Below, piece by piece: positions 4,686-16,894 of a stretch of DNA of 62,076 nucleotides; within the stretch, counting starts at the first letter, position 1, and each line of letters begins with the position of its first letter. Origin of the DNA: Acidimicrobiales bacterium (GTDB lineage Bacteria > Actinomycetota > Acidimicrobiia > Acidimicrobiales > RAAP-2). The notes beneath the pieces were generated by a model, which saw only the letters and a program-made list of their open reading frames with translations, had not been told where the DNA came from and did no database searches. Where the stretch lies: the NCBI GenBank assembly GCA_025362585.1, contig JANYFR010000064.1, positions 1 to 62,076 on the forward strand, written 5' to 3'. The position numbers were made by a program, and so were the translations under genes.

Positions 4686-5614
4686 CAGCTCACCTTCGTA
4701 ATCTTAGAAGAACGCGTGCGGTTCCAGATGTAGAGAGCGATGAACATGCTCGCGATGCCTAAGAGGACCACAGCGCCCGCCGAGGCGATGCCGATCGATC
4801 CGTTCGCAAATCCGTTTTGGTAGATGTAGAACTCCATGACGCTGGACGAATAGGCGGGGCCGCCCCCGGTCAACACGTAGACGTACGTAAAGACAGAACT
4901 CAGCACGATGATCGCCTGGAGGATCACGAAGAACTCGATGATGCGGCGAATCTGAGGAATGAGGATGCGCCGCTGCACGACCCACCACGATGCTCCGTCG
5001 ATGCGCGCGGCCTCGACGGTCTCCTGGGGAACAGCCAGCAAGGCGGCGGAGAAGACGACAACGCCGAAGCCAAACTGCTGCCAAACAATGACGCCGCCGA
5101 TTGAGAACATCACCCAACTCGGTGAACCCAGCCAATCGTGGATGAGGAAAGAGAGGTGCAGATGCGTCAGCAGCGAGTCGAGGACGCCGTTGCCCTGCAG
5201 GAGGTACGAGAAGGAGAGGCCCATGGCCGTCGCAGGCAGGATGTAGGGCAGGAAGATGATCGCGCGATAGACCCGCAATCCGCGAAACGTGGTGTTAATC
5301 ATCAACGCGGCCGACAGTGACAGGGTCGTGACGATGGGCACGGTCAACAGCAACTTGAAGTTGTTGAACATCGAATGGATGAACTGCGGGTCGTGGAACA
5401 GTTCCTTGTAGTTCGCCCAGCCCACCCACACCAACTGGCCGACGCTCCCCGCATAGAACGAGTAGTGCGCCACCTGGTAGAAGGAGTAGCCGAAGGTGAC
5501 ACCAAGGACCATCAGCACGGGGGCCATGTAGCCGTAGGGCCAGTAGGCCCGACGGCGCCGCACACGCGAGGTGCGCGGCGCCGTTGGTGCCGACGTCGTC
5601 GTCAAGGTGGTCAC
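4685..5614 (-). CDS. Carbohydrate ABC transporter permease (MalF/UgpA type)
   Basis: A 309-residue permease with an arginine-rich cytoplasmic N-terminus ('RTSRVRRRRAYWPYGYMAP') and about six membrane helices. The EAA motif is 'EAARIDGASWWVVQRRILIP', and 'LTGGGPAYSS' is the usual loop before the last helices of MalF-type permeases. It pairs with the downstream MalG-type subunit in a heterodimer. GTG start at 5614; only a distant AAAGG is seen upstream, so a few codons of uncertainty remain. Confidence 0.92.
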   Translation of the reverse strand: MTTLTTTSAPTAPRTSRVRRRRAYWPYGYMAPVLMVLGVTFGYSFYQVAHYSFYAGSVGQLVWVGWANYKELFHDPQFIHSMFNNFKLLLTVPIVTTLSLSAALMINTTFRGLRVYRAIIFLPYILPATAMGLSFSYLLQGNGVLDSLLTHLHLSFLIHDWLGSPSWVMFSIGGVIVWQQFGFGVVVFSAALLAVPQETVEAARIDGASWWVVQRRILIPQIRRIIEFFVILQAIIVLSSVFTYVYVLTGGGPAYSSSVMEFYIYQNGFANGSIGIASAGAVVLLGIASMFIALYIWNRTRSSKITKVS

Positions 5615-5649
5615 GGGAGAGTCAGACGACCTTTCCTAGTGGTGACGAC

Positions 5650-7026
5650 TCACGAGGCCGAGGCCAGCTTCTTGAACAACTGGAATTGCACCGGCTGCTG
5701 GAGTTGCCACTTCTCGATCTGCTGCATCCACAACTGCGCCGCCTGAGCGGGCGTGCCCGATCCCGAGGTGATCAACTGACCGGCCGGCAGGTCGGCGTTG
5801 GTGTCGATCTGGGGCGGAATGTAGTTCTCCAACCACACCGACTTACCTGACGTGTCGAGCCCGTCGAGCAGTTTGGGTAGGGTACCCGTGACGCGCGACA
5901 ACGGGAAGCGGTCGTCGGCGGGGAACGCCCCGGTTTCGGCGTAGAGCGCCATCATGTTCGCGGGCGTGTGCAAGAAAGCGAGGAACTTCGCCGTGGCGGC
6001 CTTGTTGGTCGACCACGACGTGATGAACTCGTCCGAAGACTGGGTCGCGTCATACGTGCTCGCCAACTTGCCCGTACCCCAGATTGGCGGCCGCCCGACG
6101 CCGACGTTCTGCGCACCCAGGGTCTTCGCCCAGGCGAGCACATTGCCGTCCGTCGTGAACGACATCGCGGCCTTCTTCTGAGGGAAGAGCTGCCAGCCTT
6201 GATTGAGCGAGAGCGACTCCACGTTCGAGTTGACGTAGCCGGCCTTGATCAGTCCCTGGAACATCGTGTACATTGCGGTCAGCGATTTCAACAACGCGGT
6301 GCGCTTCGCACCAGTGGTGGCCACTCCTTGAGACAACTGGGAAATTGTGTTCAGCTGCTGCTTTTCGTAGATGGCGAACATCCACGCGCCGAAGTAGCCA
6401 TCTTGGTTGCCCATGCCGAAGGGGGTAATGCCGTGGGCCTTGAGGGCCTTGCAGTCCGCGAGGAATGCCGTCCACGTGGTGGGCGCCTTGTTGGGGTCGA
6501 GACCGGCCTTCTTGAAGAGTTGCTTGTTCCACACGAGGGGCACGCCCAGGAGGTAGAGCGGCATCGCGTAGATCTGTCCCTTGTAACTGTTCTCATTGAC
6601 GTTGAGCCAGTGCTTGGTCTCGCTGGCCGGCACGTAGTTAGAGATCGGCGTCACCGAACCCTGCAGCGCGGGCTGCAGGGTGGGAAGTGTCGCCCACTGA
6701 GTGTCCATGTCCGGACCGGTCTTGCCCTGAGCGGCCAAGGAGAAACTCGTAATAATCGTCGAGTTGGACTGGGGCACGACGGCGACCTTGACGTTCGGGT
6801 TGGCCTTCTCGTAGAGTGCCACCCGCTGGTTCAGCCACGTGGTGATGCCGGGGATGTCACTCTCGCCCCAGAACCAGAATGTCAGTTTGGTCTGTGAGGA
6901 GGCACCGGCGGATCCCGACAGCGGGACGGCAGCGATGCCCAGGGCCATTGAAGCGACCGTCAAACTCGCGATGAGCTTGTTCCGAAAATGTGGTGCCCGA
7001 GATCGAGCTGACCAATCCTTACTCAT
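5650..7026 (-). CDS. Extracellular sugar-type solute-binding protein
   Basis: A 458-residue family 1 solute-binding protein. A signal peptide runs from 'FRNKLIASLTVASMALGI' to about 'GSAGA', followed by the mature start 'KLTFWFWGESD', typical of sugar-binding proteins. No cysteine follows the hydrophobic stretch, so it lacks a lipobox. Other family segments are 'GPDMDTQWATLPTLQ', 'PLYLLGVPLVWNKQLFKKAG' and 'FPQKKAAMSFTTDGN'. The ATG at 7026 is chosen because GGGGAGA lies just upstream and the signal peptide then starts close to the N-terminus; an ATG at 7110 would add 28 unlikely residues. First gene of the minus-strand arm. Confidence 0.92.
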   Translation of the reverse strand: MSKDWSARSRAPHFRNKLIASLTVASMALGIAAVPLSGSAGASSQTKLTFWFWGESDIPGITTWLNQRVALYEKANPNVKVAVVPQSNSTIITSFSLAAQGKTGPDMDTQWATLPTLQPALQGSVTPISNYVPASETKHWLNVNENSYKGQIYAMPLYLLGVPLVWNKQLFKKAGLDPNKAPTTWTAFLADCKALKAHGITPFGMGNQDGYFGAWMFAIYEKQQLNTISQLSQGVATTGAKRTALLKSLTAMYTMFQGLIKAGYVNSNVESLSLNQGWQLFPQKKAAMSFTTDGNVLAWAKTLGAQNVGVGRPPIWGTGKLASTYDATQSSDEFITSWSTNKAATAKFLAFLHTPANMMALYAETGAFPADDRFPLSRVTGTLPKLLDGLDTSGKSVWLENYIPPQIDTNADLPAGQLITSGSGTPAQAAQLWMQQIEKWQLQQPVQFQLFKKLASAS

Positions 7027-10878: not shown

Positions 10879-11081
10879 CCGGACGACTCGCCTCACAATC
10901 GACGGTCTCCGTTGGAACTTGACGACTGCACTCAATTCTCACGACTCTCCCCTACGCGTAGGAGCAACGGGCTGCCAGAAACTTGCCTGTCGGTCGAGTC
11001 GTTCAGCCGGCGAGCACGAGCTCGATGCAGGGACGCTACGACGTCGATTCTCGCCACACTGTCCCGTCCTTCGCTGACTCG

Positions 11082-11154
11082 CTGGCGGGGGAGGGCTCGA
11101 ACCTCCAACCTACGGATTCAAAGTCCGTCGTTCTGCCAATTGAACTACCCGCCA
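11082..11154 (-). tRNA. tRNA-Gln (anticodon TTG)
   Basis: On the minus strand a 73-nt cloverleaf folds completely: 7-bp acceptor TGGCGGG/CCCGCCA, D stem GTTC/GAAC, anticodon stem ACGGA/TCCGT with loop CTTTGAA giving anticodon TTG (reads CAA and, with wobble, CAG), variable loop AGGTT and T stem GGAGG/CCTCC with loop TTCGAGC. The discriminator base is G and CCA is not encoded. It lies alone between the ABC ATPase and the divergent response-regulator gene. Confidence 0.95.
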
Positions 11155-11192
11155 AAAACGGTACGCTGACAATCTTCGGTGATTCTTAATGA

Positions 11193-11963
11193 ATGAGTGA
11201 GGATGACTTATACCAATCAGCAACACTAGAGCCTGATGCCTCGCCCGTAGAAAGCCGCGCCGTGACCACCGCCCCCTCCCCGAACTCCTACATCGCGATC
11301 GTCGACGATGACGCCGCGATTCGCACCGCACTCGGGCGAGCGCTCCGAATGGAGAACTACGACGTGGAACTCTTCGATGACGGCGTCAGCGCTCTGAAGT
11401 CGATCCAGCTGCGCGCCCCCGACGCCATTGTTCTCGACCTGCAGCTGCCCGACATTGACGGCCTCGAAATCTGTCGACGAATCCGCCGCTCCGGCGACAC
11501 CACGCCCATTCTGATGCTCACCGCGCGAGACGCGGTGAACGACCGCGTCGCCGGTCTCGACGTGGGTGCCGACGACTACCTGGTGAAACCGTTCGACCTC
11601 GCCGAACTGCTCGCCCGTCTGCGCGCACTCCTTCGCCGGCACAACGTGGGCGACGGGGATGGCTCGGTCCTGCGCTTCGAGGACCTGACGTTGAGTCCCC
11701 AAACTCGAGAGGTGCACCGAGGCGGACGTAGTGTCGAGTTGACCAAGATTGAGTTCGACCTCCTCGAGCTCTTTCTGCAGCACCCTCGTCAGGTGCTCAC
11801 TCGCGATCAGATTCTCGACCTCGTCTGGGGCTACAACTTCGACTCCGGCACGAATTCGCTGGCCGTGTACATCGGCTATCTGCGTCGCAAACTCGAAGAG
11901 AGTGGCGAGTCCCGTCTCATCCAGACGGTGCGCGGCGTGGGTTACGCCCTTCGCACGACGTGA
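11193..11963 (+). CDS. OmpR-family response regulator (MprA/PrrA-like)
   Basis: A 256-residue two-component regulator. The receiver domain has the acidic pocket 'IVDDDAA', phospho-acceptor Asp in '[11 protein letters not shown]' and '[10 protein letters not shown]'. The C-terminal winged helix has '[20 protein letters not shown]' and 'YLRRKLE'. The first ~30 residues before the receiver are an unusual disordered-looking extension; a GTG at 11262 would remove most of it. The kinase gene overlaps it by 4 nt. The ApbE / membrane electron-transfer genes follow on the same strand and are its likely targets. Confidence 0.93.
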
Positions 11964-13318
11964 CGTTTCGCACCCGGGTCATCACCGCGACGGTCGCCGC
12001 CGCGACCATCGCCGTCATGCTCGCCTGCCTGGCCTCGTTCATCACCACTCGCTCGGCGCTCTTGCACTCGGTCGACGTCTCCCTCCTCTCTCAGGCTTCG
12101 CAGAACACTCCCAAGGGCGGCAACGACGAGACGCAAATCGGTGCCTACGTGGTACTGGTTCTCCCTTCGGGTCAGACAGTACCCTCGTCGGCGGTACCGG
12201 TCGACGCCGCAATCCGCGCCGTCGCGAAGGGCCAGAGCGATCAGGTGCTGCGCGACTTCACTTTTAAAGGCCACACCTACCGGGAGTTGGTCGTCCCCCT
12301 TCCCAAGGGCACGGACATCACGTCGACTAACGGCGTGTACACCACCAAGACCACCACGGCGGAACTGTTCATCATCAACATCACCGGACAGATCACGGAG
12401 TTGCGCAATCTCGTGCGGACGCTGCTCCTGGTGGCGGTGGGCGGGCTCCTCCTGGCCCTCGGCCTCGGCCTCTTCCTCGCACGCGCGGCCCTGCGCCCCC
12501 TTGAAGAGGTCACCAACGAGATCGAGACCGTCGCGGAGACGAACGACATGGCCTACCGGCTCGTCGAGGGCGAGGCCGACGAACTTGGTCGCCTGCGCCG
12601 CGTCTTTAACAGACTGCTCAGCACCGTTGAAGCGAGCCAGACCCTCCAACGCCAGCTCGTCGTCGACGCCAGTCACGAACTTCGCACTCCCCTGACGTCG
12701 TTGCGCACCAACGCCCAAGTCCTCACACGCGCCCGCGAGCTGAACCCGGAGGACCTGAGCCAGCTCACGGGCGACATGGTCACCCAGGTTGACGAGCTCG
12801 CGGCGCTCGTGGCCGACCTTGGCGAGCTCGCCCGGGGCGAGCGCAGCGAGGGCGCCATTGAATCACTACGACTCGACGAGTGCGTGGACGAGTGCGTGGA
12901 CACGGCGCGAACGTACGCCCGGATCAAGGACATCGCTCTCGAGGCGCACGTGCAGCCGTCAACCGTGCTCGGCCGACACGACCGACTGGTGCGCGCCATC
13001 TCGAATCTCTTGACCAACGCGGTGAAGTTCACCCCGAGCGGCGGGCAGATCGTTGTGGCGTCGAGCAAGGGCGCCATTTCGGTGAGTGACAGCGGACCGG
13101 GAATCAACGACCAGGACTTGCCGTTCGTCTTTGACCGGTTCTGGCGTTCACCAACGGCACGCGCCCTGCCCGGGTCGGGTCTCGGTCTCTCAATCGTCGC
13201 CCAAGTGGTGGCCGAACTGCAGGGTACCGTCGAGGTTGACCGCGACCCCGTACTTAAGGGGGCACGCTTCACGATCACCATGCCGATCGCCCCCACCGAG
13301 GCGCCCGTCGGGTTGTAG
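11960..13318 (+). CDS. HAMP-containing sensor histidine kinase (MprB/PrrB-like)
   Basis: A 452-residue membrane kinase. A helix near residues 5-27 and a second after '[16 protein letters not shown]' bracket an external sensor region of about 120 residues. HAMP follows, then HisKA with the phospho-acceptor in '[14 protein letters not shown]', and an ATPase domain with N box '[10 protein letters not shown]', 'SDSGPGI' and 'GSGLGLSIV'. GTG start in a GTGA overlap with the response regulator. The sensor region has no recognised ligand domain, so the signal is unknown. Confidence 0.92.
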
Positions 13319-13401
13319 TCACCTTCTGTCAATTTTCTTACGGCACCGCTGATGGCTCCTTAGGTGCCCGGGTGACATTTCGAGGGAAAGGATCTCCCAC
13401 C

Positions 13402-13605
13402 ATGACGTTGCCTCGCCACACCCCTCAACAGCGCAGTCTCCGTGTGACGCCCCGGGGCCTCCCGGGGTCGACGCCCGGCGCCGTCCAACCGCCATCGACC
13501 GTTGCCGACCTGGCCGCGGTGGACGCGGCCGCTATCAATACCTTGCCCACCTTCGGACCCCGCCGTCAACTCGGCCGGCCCCTCGGGCACTACGGTCGGG
13601 AATGA
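13402..13605 (+). CDS. Small hypothetical protein upstream of ApbE
   Basis: A 67-residue ORF starting at ATG 13402 after 'GAAAGGA', with a possible earlier ATG at 13372. It is rich in Pro, Arg, Thr and Ala and has no membrane helix, cysteine or known motif. It ends 9 nt before the ApbE start, so it may be co-transcribed. Flavin transferases often sit next to their FMN-acceptor protein, but no FMN-attachment motif of the (S/T)GA(S/T) type is seen here. It could be a leader peptide, a small partner, or not translated. Confidence 0.4.
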   Translation: MTLPRHTPQQRSLRVTPRGLPGSTPGAVQPPSTVADLAAVDAAAINTLPTFGPRRQLGRPLGHYGRE

Positions 13606-13614
13606 GCGTCGAGA

Positions 13615-14520
13615 ATGAACTTCCAAATCTGGGGCCTGAGTGGTTCACTACATACCCAGCACGAGAGCAGCATGGCCTTCGCCGAAGAGCGGCTCTGGCA
13701 CTGGATTAACAAGGTGGACGCCGCGTGCAATCGATTCCGTCGAGACTCCGAGATCTCACGCCTGAATGCCATGGGCGGCCAGACCGTCGCCGTCAGCGCG
13801 ACCCTCGAACGGGCGATCGACGCAGCGATCCGCGCCGGTGAGGCGACGGGGGGGCTCTGTGACCCCACGGTGCTGCCGGCCCTGGTGGCCCTCGGTTACG
13901 ACCGCGACTACGACGAACTGGTCACCCGCACCGACACTGTTGTTGGGGTGCCCGTGCCCGCGCCCGGTCTCGACGCCATCACGCTCGACGCCGCCAACCA
14001 CACGCTCAGCCTCGCCCCCCACTGTCAGATCGACCTCGGGGCCAGTGCGAAGGCCCTCGTCGTCGACATCGTCGCCGACGAGGTATGGCGCCACGGCGAT
14101 GGCGTGGTCGTGGAGCTTGGTGGCGACGTCGCCGTGCGCGGTTCGGGACCCCTCGGTCCCTGGGTAATCGGCGTCAGTGACTCACTCGACGTGGGCCCCG
14201 ACGTGCCAAGAGTCAGCTTCGGCCACGGCGGCATCGCCACGTCCTCCACTCGCTCGAGGACGTGGCGCGCGGGCACTGAGGTCGTCAACCACATCATCGA
14301 TCCGCGCACCGGCTCGTACGCGCGGGGCCCCTACGTCACCGCCACCGTCTCAGCGAGCGACTGCGTGCTCGCCAACGCCTTCGCCACCGCCGCGCTGCTC
14401 TGGGACGACGACGCCGGCTACTTCATTGCCCAGGCCGGTTGGTCGGCACGCCTGATCCGTTTCGACGGTACGGTTGAGTTCGTAGGTGGGTGGCCAGCAG
14501 AAGGAGAGATCTCCCCATGA
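13615..14520 (+). CDS. apbE: FAD:protein FMN transferase
   Basis: A 301-residue ApbE-family protein. ApbE uses FAD and Mg2+ to attach FMN covalently to a Thr/Ser of electron-transfer proteins. Family segments are 'ISRLNA', 'GEATGGLCDPTVLPAL', 'CQIDLGASAKALVVD', 'VVELGGDVAVRG' and 'HIIDPRTG'. No signal peptide or lipobox is present, so it should act in the cytoplasm. It overlaps the ferric-reductase-like gene by 4 nt (ATGA). Its acceptor protein is not obvious in the window. Confidence 0.93.
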   Translation: MNFQIWGLSGSLHTQHESSMAFAEERLWHWINKVDAACNRFRRDSEISRLNAMGGQTVAVSATLERAIDAAIRAGEATGGLCDPTVLPALVALGYDRDYDELVTRTDTVVGVPVPAPGLDAITLDAANHTLSLAPHCQIDLGASAKALVVDIVADEVWRHGDGVVVELGGDVAVRGSGPLGPWVIGVSDSLDVGPDVPRVSFGHGGIATSSTRSRTWRAGTEVVNHIIDPRTGSYARGPYVTATVSASDCVLANAFATAALLWDDDAGYFIAQAGWSARLIRFDGTVEFVGGWPAEGEISP

Positions 14521-15212
14521 TTGCCCTGACTTCACCGTATCTCTGGTACACGACCCGCGCCACGGGATTCGTCGCCCTAATCCTCTTCACGCTCGTGGCG
14601 TCGCTCGGGACCTTCGTCGCCAACCGAATCGGCGGAACGTACATCGGTCGCTTCGAACTGAATGAACTGCACCGTTCGGTGTCGATCATTGCCATCATGT
14701 TCCTCGTTATCCACATCACCACCACCGTGATCGACAGTTTCGTCTCGACCGGCTGGACCTCGGCGTTGGTGCCGATGACGTCGGCCTACAAGCGCCTGCC
14801 GGTCACGCTGGGCACCGTGGCGTTTGACCTCATTCTCGCCGTGTGGATCTCGAGCCTCTTGAAGGCACGTATCGCGAACGGGACCTGGCGGTTCATCCAC
14901 TGGTTCAGTTGGTTGGCCTTGGCGACCGCGGTGGTCCACGGGATCCTCGTCGGTACCGACAGCCGCCGCAGCTTCGGGCTCGTCATCGTCGTCGTCTGCT
15001 CGCTCGTCGTGGTCGCTAGCGCGTTCTGGCGTTACCTGGGGCGCCCCACCCGGGCCGCGGGCCGCACCGCGCTGTCACCGCTCGCGCCGATCGACCGTGC
15101 CACTCGCCCGCCCCGGGCGTCGGGCAACGACCCGGCGACAACGCCCCGCCGCGGGGTCCGGCCTTCGTCGCCCACCACTCCCCCCGATGACGCACGACGG
15201 GGGCGCCGGTGA
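14517..15212 (+). CDS. Ferric-reductase-like transmembrane diheme protein
   Basis: A 231-residue membrane protein with about six helices in the first 175 residues and a Pro/Arg-rich cytoplasmic tail. Two histidine pairs, His52/His66 ('LHRS', 'LVIHIT') and His128/His141 ('RFIHWF', 'VVHGIL'), have the 13- and 12-residue spacings expected for two stacked b hemes in the ferric reductase / NOX / MsrQ fold. It lacks the FAD and NAD domains of full-length ferric reductases, so electrons must come from another protein, probably the NuoF-like gene that follows. AAGGAG precedes the ATG, which overlaps the apbE stop. GTGA overlap downstream. Confidence 0.85.
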   Translation: MIALTSPYLWYTTRATGFVALILFTLVASLGTFVANRIGGTYIGRFELNELHRSVSIIAIMFLVIHITTTVIDSFVSTGWTSALVPMTSAYKRLPVTLGTVAFDLILAVWISSLLKARIANGTWRFIHWFSWLALATAVVHGILVGTDSRRSFGLVIVVVCSLVVVASAFWRYLGRPTRAAGRTALSPLAPIDRATRPPRASGNDPATTPRRGVRPSSPTTPPDDARRGRR

Positions 15213-16486
15213 TTGCCGCCACCACTCTGCCGCGCGTGCTCCACGGCGCGAGCGGTCGTCCCCTCACGCTCGAACAGCACGAGGAGGCCTTTTCGATGAC
15301 CGAGCGGCCCGGCACACTGGTCGAGCAACTTGAGGCGGCGGGACTGACGGGACGCGGCGGCGCGGCCTTCCCCACGTACCGAAAGGTCCAACTGATCGCC
15401 AACCAGCGCAGTCACCACAAGTTCATGGTGGTGAACGCCATGGAGGGGGAACCGGCCGCGCACAAGGACCAGACGTTGCTGTCGTCCAACCCCCACCTCG
15501 TCCTCGACGGCGCCGAGTTCCTGGCGGCCGCGATCGGGGCGAAGAACATCGCCATCTGCGTGGCGCGCGACAATCCGAAGGTCGTGCATCACGTCCAACG
15601 CGCAATCCACGAGCGCTCGCGGCGCGGCCGCCGTGGACCGAAACTCGAACTCCACGCCCCGCCGTGGCGCTACGTCGCGGGCGAGGAGTCGGCCCTGGTG
15701 CACTGGCTCAACAACCACGAGTCGCTTCCCCAGTACCGGCCCGACCGGCCGCATATTCTGCGAATCGACAACGGTCCGGCACTCGTGGACAACGCCGAGA
15801 CCTGCGCCAACGTGGGACTGATCGGCCGGTTCGGGGCCGACTGGTTTCGCGCACTCGGTACCGCCGAGAGTCCGGGCAGCACCCTCGTGTCACTGTCCGG
15901 TGCGATCACGCGTCCCACCGTCCTCGAGGTACCACTCGGTGCGTCATTGCGCTCAATTCTCGTAGCGGGCGGCGCCGACCCCGACCCCCAGGCCGTTCTC
16001 ACCGGCGGCTACGGCGGAGCGTGGTTGAGCGGTGACCACCTCGACACCCCCTACACCAATCAGGCCCTCGGGGCCCTCGGGGCGACCGTCGGCGCGGGTA
16101 TTCTCGTCGTGATCCCGAAGAGCGCCTGCGGTCTCGTCGAGACCCATCGGATCGCCCGGTGGATGGCCAACGAGAGCGCTCGCCAGTGCGGGCCGTGCGC
16201 CTTCGGCCTGCCGGCGCTCGCCGAGGACCTGCGCGAACTGGCCTACGGGTCGCGCGACCCCCGGGCCGTCCTGGCGCGACTCGTCGAACGCTGCGGAGTG
16301 ATTGAGGGCCGGGGTGCCTGTCGCCATCCAGACGGCGTGACCCGGCTGATCAAGTCGGCGCTGGAGGTCTTCGCGACCGACCTCAACCACCACATGCTCG
16401 GCGCACCCTGCGTCGGCAGCGGCTCGACCCGGCACTACGTGCCCATTCCGGCGCTGGAGCGTGAAGAGGAGATGGTGTGGGAGTGA
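15209..16486 (+). CDS. NuoF-like NADH-binding flavoprotein with SLBB and Fe-S region
   Basis: A 425-residue protein resembling the 51-kDa subunit of complex I. The NADH/FMN site is seen at 48-59 ('GRGGAAFPTYRK') and 'NAMEGEPAAHKDQ' near 76, with 'YVAGEESALV' near 155 and 'NAETCANV' near 195. An SLBB-like stretch covers about 225-275. In the C-terminal cluster region the usual four cysteines are reduced: Cys327 and Cys330 ('QCGPC') and Cys371 ('GACRHPDG') remain, while the first is Ala324. It probably feeds electrons from NAD(P)H to the ferredoxin and the membrane hemes. GTG start overlaps the membrane-protein stop. No other complex I subunits are nearby. Confidence 0.85.
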   Translation: MIAATTLPRVLHGASGRPLTLEQHEEAFSMTERPGTLVEQLEAAGLTGRGGAAFPTYRKVQLIANQRSHHKFMVVNAMEGEPAAHKDQTLLSSNPHLVLDGAEFLAAAIGAKNIAICVARDNPKVVHHVQRAIHERSRRGRRGPKLELHAPPWRYVAGEESALVHWLNNHESLPQYRPDRPHILRIDNGPALVDNAETCANVGLIGRFGADWFRALGTAESPGSTLVSLSGAITRPTVLEVPLGASLRSILVAGGADPDPQAVLTGGYGGAWLSGDHLDTPYTNQALGALGATVGAGILVVIPKSACGLVETHRIARWMANESARQCGPCAFGLPALAEDLRELAYGSRDPRAVLARLVERCGVIEGRGACRHPDGVTRLIKSALEVFATDLNHHMLGAPCVGSGSTRHYVPIPALEREEEMVWE

Positions 16487-16719
16487 GGCGAAAGGTCGGC
16501 GGATTCGTCCTGAAAGTCAACCCGATCCTCTGTGACGGATTCGGGCACTGCCACGAGTTGGCCCCCGAACTCGTCAAGATCGATGAGTGGGGCTACCCGA
16601 TCATTCTCGGGACCCCGACGCCACTCGCCGACGGCGCGGCTCTCGAATCGGCCCGCTACGCAGTACGCGGTTGTCCACGCCAGGCACTCACCATCGCACG
16701 TGTCGACGAACAGTCCTAA
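16477..16719 (+). CDS. Small [3Fe-4S]-type ferredoxin
   Basis: An 80-residue ferredoxin with three cluster cysteines: Cys19, Cys25 ('CDGFGHC') and Cys66 ('GCPRQAL'). Phe replaces the middle cysteine of a CxxCxxC motif, which is the pattern of [3Fe-4S] ferredoxins. 'HELAPELVKIDEWGYP' is the standard segment between them. Start GTG 16477 is 6 nt after GAGGAG; a GTG at 16483 overlapping the stop of the previous gene is the alternative. It should shuttle single electrons for the NuoF-like protein. It might also serve the P450 at 36.7 kb. Confidence 0.88.
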   Translation: MGVRRKVGGFVLKVNPILCDGFGHCHELAPELVKIDEWGYPIILGTPTPLADGAALESARYAVRGCPRQALTIARVDEQS

Positions 16720-16792: not shown

Positions 16793-16894
16793 ATGGGATC
16801 ACTAATCAAGAAGCGCCGCAAGCGCATGCGCAAGAAGAAGCACAAGAAGATGCTGAAGCGAACCCGTTTTCAGCGTCGCGCCGCCGGTAAATAG
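16793..16894 (+). CDS. Small ribosomal subunit protein bS22
   Basis: A 33-residue very basic protein, 'MGSLIKKRRKRMRKKKHK' and on to 'RTRFQRRAAGK'. It matches almost position for position the actinobacterial bS22 (AURKAIP1/COX24-like) protein found in mycobacterial 30S subunits near the decoding centre. It is easily missed because of its size. The mRNA has a very short leader. It converges with ispE, whose stop lies 13 nt further on. Confidence 0.9.
   Translation: MGSLIKKRRKRMRKKKHKKMLKRTRFQRRAAGK

Follow-up and report, generated by a model that had tools for sequence, protein, structure and literature searches.

A proposed two-component-regulated module for electron export in Acidimicrobiales with a putative ApbE-flavinylated tail protein

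What does an ApbE enzyme modify in a genome in which no FMN_bind protein is found? This question is raised by a contig of 62,076 nucleotides from an Acidimicrobiales bacterium (JANYFR010000064.1 of assembly GCA_025362585.1; the whole stretch is referred to as the window), in which positions 11193-16719 encode a response regulator (RR), a histidine kinase (HK), ApbE, a ferric-reductase-like diheme membrane protein (FRD), a NuoF-like protein and a ferredoxin (Fd). We propose, with the chances about evenly balanced, that this run is a two-component-regulated electron-export module in which ApbE would flavinylate a single-helix tail protein instead of an FMN_bind protein. A wider proposal, more tentative and somewhat short of even, is that Acidimicrobiia possess a new class of flavoproteins lacking a flavin-binding fold, in which a membrane-tethered arm with an [S/T]G[A/G][S/T] end and a dedicated ApbE subfamily (Asn or Glu in the active site) would replace FMN_bind in NuoF-driven export.

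The missing FMN_bind partner and the tail proteins

The initial annotation took ApbE to imply a partner protein with covalently bound FMN, and named a genome search for FMN-binding-domain proteins as a check. A partner with such a domain is not supported: PF04205 (FMN_bind) is matched neither in the operon nor elsewhere in the 2.09-Mb, 96% complete assembly to which the window belongs, nor in 12 other genomes of the genus with a single apbE gene. Within the genus FMN_bind is absent from 13 of 41 genomes (this one included), each of which keeps one apbE gene (that of G014 being matched in two pieces), and is present in the other 28, where comparison by eye places an ApbE match beside the FMN_bind match in every case. 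The only ApbE match in the window's genome is the operon copy. Beyond the genus, 15 of 28 further genomes with related clusters lack FMN_bind and all 28 have ApbE. DUF2271 and NqrB/RnfD had no match in any of the 21 FMN_bind-free genomes tested (DUF3570, Flavodoxin_4 and FMN_red were not searched), and these two families and FMN_bind were rejected as the ApbE target. In the terms of Meheust et al. 2021 the operon gene is an orphan apbE; passages of that paper count 670 genomes with apbE and no recognised substrate and leave this as an open question (PMC8238504). The tail proteins described below are a concrete candidate answer to it for a group of Actinomycetota.

The tail proteins were compared across 34 loci other than the window-type locus, namely all 25 matches above 400 bits from outside the genus together with G044, G056, G057, L107, L109 and L178 (the last three from genomes of the window's genus) and L206, L208 and L209 (stretches from a phylum survey). 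One of these, L158, is cut by a contig end, and the remaining 33 gave a tail gene. The gene was picked by eye as the closest membrane-helix open reading frame (ORF) ahead of apbE or FRD, which may have introduced some bias of choice, and shared descent of the loci makes the counts interdependent. In all 33 the slot encodes a protein that combines a hydrophobic helix with a low-complexity arm rich in Ser, Thr and Pro. A C-terminal motif, defined as either [ST]G[AGSQ]?[ST] at or close to the C-terminus or [ST]GA[ST] in the final 30 residues, occurs in 29 of the 33, against a background of 13 in 1392 other ORFs (spurious ORFs being included in these counts), 5 in 340 ORFs with a hydrophobic stretch (transmembrane-positive, TM-positive) and 6% of shuffled last-40 residues. 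Matching ends are SGAS, SGGS, TGGS, SGGT, SGQS, SGSS, SSGS, TSGS and TTGA[S/T], and nine loci have the canonical [S/T]GA[S/T]. When 42 tail proteins were scanned with Pfam and NCBIfam no shared family emerged, with single scattered matches only, and no earlier description of such tails was found in the open-access literature (preprints being outside its scope). We propose the tails as a new class of ApbE substrates, that is, as candidate natural flavin tags.

Some neighbouring arrangements deserve mention in their own right. In the distant loci L204 (G381) and L205 (G673) a single-helix small protein precedes FRD and the NuoF-like gene, with no apbE match in the stretch, and in L165 (G277) a single-helix protein ending SRGS precedes an apbE of the Glu/Lys type. 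Beside the tail gene of L171 (G335:C51, reverse strand, 5104-5802) lies a 233-residue membrane protein that ends LSGAS; it appears b-type cytochrome-like by eye, has no Pfam match and is perhaps a cytochrome with its own flavin tail.

In relatives of the window from its own genus, the slot between HK and apbE encodes a protein of about 100-190 residues that has an N-terminus rich in Arg, a single hydrophobic helix, a linker rich in Thr and Pro and, near the C-terminal end, the motif C-x-[ST]-x-[PA]-SG-x3-C. Arg11, Arg19, Cys93, Ser98, Gly99 and Cys103 (L074 numbering) are invariant in 39 rows. A window-type apbE was listed for 38 of the 41 genomes and has a member of this family within 400 bp in 36 of them; it lacks one in the window itself and in G035, whose apbE borders a contig end. 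Tandem pairs of tail genes precede apbE at some loci (L034, 5257-5571 and 5799-6383; also L107 and L109).

The tail-type ApbE

The window ApbE (PF02424, 142.9 bits) was modelled with a pLDDT of 89.7, and its best structural match is V. cholerae ApbE 6nxi with a TM-score of 0.78. Mapping V. cholerae Ser241, His257 and Asp285 through 6nxi and its H257G mutant 6nxj places the Ser241 and His257 equivalents on conserved residues and finds Asn at the Asp285 position. The same holds throughout the genus, where Ser and His are kept and Asn replaces Asp in all 48 rows (at least one locus is counted twice here, L045 and L073 being apparently the same contig). In 28 other tail-type rows Ser and His are again invariant, and the Asp285 position is Asn in 20 and Glu in 8. 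Asp is retained in all 19 ApbEs of the genus that are linked to FMN_bind.

This active-site residue varies together with the tail. All six loci with TTGA[S/T] tails have a Glu/Lys-form ApbE, and all 18 ApbE-bearing loci with an [S/T]G-type ending have Asn; the Glu/Lys form occurs also in L165 and L206, which have neither tail type. A quick tree of 59 ApbE rows, in which the genus was thinned to every fourth row (12), sequences outside 201-419 residues were dropped and 27 of the 28 tail-group rows remain, places the 19 FMN_bind-linked ApbEs on one side of a branch with a support of 100. The window genus forms one clade (100) and nests, with an SH-aLRT of 93, with L152, L153, L155, L164 and L170, whose tails end SGGS, TGGS, SGGT.., SGQS and SSGS.

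Several observations weigh against flavinylation of the tails. The motif is missed in four of the 33 loci, L110 (LSSSSSF), L165 (SRGS), L206 (TFAS) and L209 (SNAS), and the tails of L204 and L205, which stand outside the 33, end SRGS, giving 29 of 35 when they are included. Asp285 is one of three conserved active-site residues of ApbE (named as such in the review PMC12052999), and its change to Asn could abolish FMN transfer, which is the strongest argument that any transfer here differs from that of the known enzymes. The window ApbE has no hydrophobic N-terminus (maximal 15-residue hydropathy 0.20; the model starts with a strand) and hence no evident signal peptide, whereas the tail is expected on the outside. 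Most characterised members of the family carry a lipoprotein or secretion signal. This problem does not decide the matter, since 17 of the 19 ApbEs of FMN_bind clusters likewise lack a strongly hydrophobic start.

The case for flavinylation, which we infer from these comparisons, is weakest for the window's own genus. A direct alignment of its SG on [S/T]GA[S/T] was rejected: at the acceptor position, the second residue beyond SG, 17 of the 39 rows have Val (Thr 15, Phe 3, Arg 2, Ser 1, Leu 1), which would leave the invariant Ser of [ST]-x-[PA]-SG as the acceptor. The [ST]-x-[PA]-S reading fits 39 of 39 rows but is post hoc, and a comparably relaxed end motif is common by chance (154 of 1493 ORFs, 57 of 388 TM-positive ones). 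In addition, the window's own copy is degenerate: its 67-codon ORF at 13402-13605 keeps the ribosome-binding site and start (TPQQR) and has no hydrophobic stretch and no C-terminal Cys motif in frame, for which reason it was rejected as a working small protein. This degeneracy may be a consensus error in the assembly. Two intact tail paralogues are present in the same genome, on contigs C27 (L112:4292-4939) and C18 (L113:3990-4664), and probably stand in for the decayed local copy. Along L113:3990-6082 of G000:C18 the C18 paralogue is accompanied by a DUF4232 protein, a further small membrane protein and a second tail copy that looks broken.

Gene set, proposed electron path and control

The features of the module, all on the plus strand, are as follows.

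11183-11210, plus strand: operator-like repeat TTCTTA-N18-CTTA over the annotated 5′ end of the response-regulator gene
11193-11963, plus strand: response regulator of the OmpR/PhoB type (Pfam Response_reg and Trans_reg_C)
11960-13318, plus strand: membrane sensor histidine kinase (Pfam HAMP, HisKA and HATPase_c)
13335-13362, plus strand: operator-like repeat TTCTTA-N18-CTTA before the small gene and apbE operon
13402-13605, plus strand: degenerate small gene for a tail protein, recognised by comparison with the intact orthologues of L032, L074 and L093
13615-14520, plus strand: apbE (Pfam ApbE; sole ApbE match in the genome)
14517-15212, plus strand: FRD, ferric-reductase-like diheme membrane protein (Pfam Ferric_reduct, PF01794)
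15209-16486, plus strand: NuoF-like NAD(P)H:acceptor subunit with FMN and Fe-S (Pfam Complex1_51K and NADH_4Fe-4S)
16477-16719, plus strand: 3Fe-4S-type ferredoxin (Pfam Fer4_15)

Checks of ORFs, Pfam and NCBIfam bear out all the named genes between 11193 and 16719 and their overlaps, which are GTGA at RR/HK, ATGA at apbE/FRD, GTGA at FRD/NuoF-like and 10 bases at NuoF-like/Fd. The initial annotation was therefore right about a same-strand run with ATGA and GTGA overlaps and about its genes; it overlooked the slot at 13402-13605 between HK and apbE, and its RR start at 11193 is probably too early. A tRNA-Gln gene (anticodon ttg; 11081-11154, minus strand) lies just before the response-regulator gene. 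Between the ferredoxin gene and ispE, a 33-codon ORF at 16793-16894 encodes a very basic peptide (MGSLIKKRRKRMRKKKHKK...), which we take to resemble the small ribosomal protein of the bS22/AURKAIP1 type.

A window-type NuoF-like protein (matches above 450 bits) occurs in 31 of 37 genomes of the genus, this one included. The order apbE-FRD-NuoF-Fd recurs in 31 window-type loci among the 46 compared, the rest being cut by contig ends or belonging to more distant clusters, and is usually preceded by the same RR and HK and followed by ispE. Values of dN/dS between the window and L032 or L074 are 0.12-0.29 for apbE, FRD, NuoF and Fd, which is purifying selection, and together with the conserved order this indicates that the module is maintained. 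Co-conservation, which the initial annotation had named as a check, is thus found within one Acidimicrobiales genus. The closest named relatives of the NuoF-like protein come from metagenome-assembled genomes titled Acidimicrobiales, Acidimicrobiaceae, Actinomycetes, uncultured actinobacterium and, in one case, Acidobacteria, several of them labelled palsa, bog or fen.

A survey of the phylum gave matches in 33 of 396 genomes, and 12 stretches were fetched. In the distant actinobacterial loci L201, L202, L203 and L210 the NuoF-like protein and the ferredoxin form a single ORF, placed after a long FRD, with no apbE match in the fetched stretches. Clusters of this make-up, with FRD and a NuoF-Fd fusion and no apbE match within the stretch, are Streptomyces-like (the organism label is a guess); the stretches of L211 and L212 have no FRD match, and that of L207 is cut by a contig start. 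Given these outcomes, the tail pattern is demonstrated mainly for Acidimicrobiia.

The FRD matches Ferric_reduct with 30.1 bits (cut-off 28) and no other Pfam domain. All 21 rows compared share its heme-ligand candidates H52, H66, H128 and H141, and Pfam finds no NAD or flavin domain on it, in agreement with its first description as a membrane protein with four heme histidines and no flavin domain. A low-confidence model (pLDDT 62) has five long helices, and a fold search with it was weak (best E 0.012), with STEAP2, STEAP1 and NOX on top; this resemblance is a consistent hint, if a weak one. The FRDs of other families in L105, L110 and L111 continue at the C-terminus into a long extension with a Ser/Gly-rich end, which is absent from the window FRD. 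The NuoF-like protein has an FMN/NADH domain and an iron-sulfur domain by Pfam and scores 203.6 bits against the complex I NuoF model TIGR01959, far below its cut-off of 558.65; judged by its sequence, it is not complex I NuoF. The first Cys of its N3 motif SCGxCxPC is Ala, the other three Cys are kept, and Cys307 or Cys401 could stand in for the lost one. A second NuoF-like match lies on contig C12 of the same genome. The ferredoxin has the three-Cys pattern C-x5-C...CP of the 3Fe-4S type assigned to it at the outset, and it matches the C-terminal part of 6mcw; this entry is named Cytochrome P450 51 and is a ferredoxin fusion.

In the simplest order of transfer, NAD(P)H would reduce the FMN and Fe-S centres of the NuoF-like protein, which would hand electrons to the ferredoxin and from there to the two b hemes of the FRD and the outer face of the membrane, both path and direction being putative. 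The step from NuoF-like protein to ferredoxin, part of the initial annotation, is supported by the NuoF-Fd fusions in four distant loci. At the outer face the electrons would be taken up by FMN attached by ApbE to the C-terminal peptide of the single-helix tail, and the Ser/Thr/Pro-rich arm, presumed to be extracytoplasmic and tethered, could swing the flavin between the hemes and an acceptor outside, for which ferric iron is a first guess from the superfamily. The tail gene would normally be the first of the operon, its local copy having decayed in the window's species, where the two paralogues would take its place. Since the core is of a known kind (MsrQ-like, NuoF-like and apbE), electron export by it is plausible.

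The two-component control that the initial annotation had ascribed to the module gains support from an operator-like repeat common to the regulator gene and the operon. The two copies of TTCTTA-N18-CTTA listed above are the only matches in the window, where 100 shuffles give an expectation of 0.00. TTCTTA lies near the RR start in all 31 relatives tested (no more than 24 bases from the homologous start in 30), and the full pair in 20 of 31; before the small gene the corresponding figures are 36 and 31 of 39 upstream rows (window included). We infer that the repeats may be the operator of the regulator, through which it would control itself and the module. As the first repeat overlaps the annotated RR start a downstream start is implied, and the true one is probably GTG 11262 rather than 11193. 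The response regulator scores under the cut-off of each of the 25 NCBIfam models listed for it; the kinase has an extracytoplasmic loop, as read off its sequence.

Alternative readings and comparison with known systems

Known clusters typically carry FMN_bind (in passages of PMC8238504), the assembly is not finished, and 28 of the 41 genus genomes carry FMN_bind somewhere, all of which would suit a plain MsrQ-like export system whose FMN_bind protein the assembly lacks or has at a distant locus, and in which the tail gene encodes an unrelated envelope protein. We regard this as unlikely: in all 28 genomes an FMN_bind match has its own ApbE match next to it, the tree separates the ApbEs of the two kinds of cluster, 13 genus genomes and 15 of the 28 others do without FMN_bind altogether, and the frequency of the tail motif over background speaks against it. 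The altered Asp285 position raises a different prospect, namely that the tail-type ApbE is no longer an FMN transferase and serves instead as an FAD-binding redox or sensor subunit, or moves a different group, with the C-terminal motif as its docking peptide. Its Asn or Glu, set against the Asp of all the FMN_bind-linked enzymes, speaks for such a change of function; the retained Ser241 and His257 equivalents, a modelled fold that is that of active ApbEs and tails that bear the transferase's own target motif make it doubtful.

In the window genus both tail Cys are invariant in 39 of 39 rows and a flavin acceptor is not plainly conserved, so that the Cys pair could be conceived as a redox centre and the module as a thiol relay that reduces an extracytoplasmic disulfide. 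A relay of this kind leaves apbE unexplained, however, and none of the 37 tail proteins among whose ApbEs the genus nests has a Cys in its last 26 residues, which renders the idea improbable. An assimilatory or respiratory quinone-linked system, in which NAD+ or ferredoxin would receive electrons flowing inward from an external donor or the quinone pool, seems to us very improbable. In a methionine sulfoxide reductase MsrQ is the subunit that binds quinone, and electrons may in principle run in reverse (both in passages of PMC8238504), but the conserved block contains no donor enzyme as far as the stretches were fetched. Outward transfer through a flavinylated tail is the reading that we retain.

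If it is correct, the flavin for electron export would be carried on a short peptide tail with no flavin-binding domain, and an ApbE subfamily with a changed active-site residue would inform how these enzymes choose their targets and could give new tagging enzymes.

The core itself has been described. A PF01794 membrane protein with a NuoF-like protein and apbE is a published flavinylation-associated transmembrane electron-transfer system of Actinobacteria, with 31 clusters containing NuoF-like proteins and an FMN_bind gene as a typical member (PMC8238504, in the passages on this class). The initial annotation had asked whether an identical complex was on record with a different function; the core is on record, and the passages of PMC8238504 on the NuoF-like clusters give no function for it that was tested. 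The present locus shares with those clusters the diheme PF01794 protein, the NuoF-like protein (PF10589), apbE and the actinobacterial host. Unlike them, as far as these passages describe them, it has a short tail protein and no FMN_bind in cluster or genome, a separate ferredoxin, a dedicated two-component system and no NAD domain on the membrane protein. Six transmembrane helices are given there as a trait of the MsrQ-like/NuoF-like class; the low-confidence FRD model has five long helices.

FMN_bind clusters of the same genus (L058 and L070) resemble the tail-type module in a single-pass anchor, a low-complexity linker, an ApbE with no evident signal peptide and an SGAT or SGAS motif. They differ from it in that this flavin site lies in the folded domain of the FMN_bind protein, that ApbE keeps its Asp and that the membrane protein has a NAD domain (by eye). 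In Flavodoxin_4 and FMN_red substrates of ApbE the flavinylation motif likewise lies in an insertion or an unstructured C-terminal extension (mSystems 2024, PMC11334425), but there the tail extends a flavin-binding fold, whereas the tails described here have no shared Pfam or NCBIfam domain. A further parallel is the engineered flavin tag of Tong et al. 2021, as cited in passages of PMC12052999, according to which seven residues suffice as an ApbE site, work best at a terminus and tolerate loss of the Asp and, in part, of the Gly and Ala. The engineered tag reads D-x-x-[S/T]GA[S/T], whereas in the putative natural tails the Asp is missing and A is often replaced by G, S or Q. The core of the module is thus a member of a published class, and the tail proteins with their matched ApbEs are what is new.

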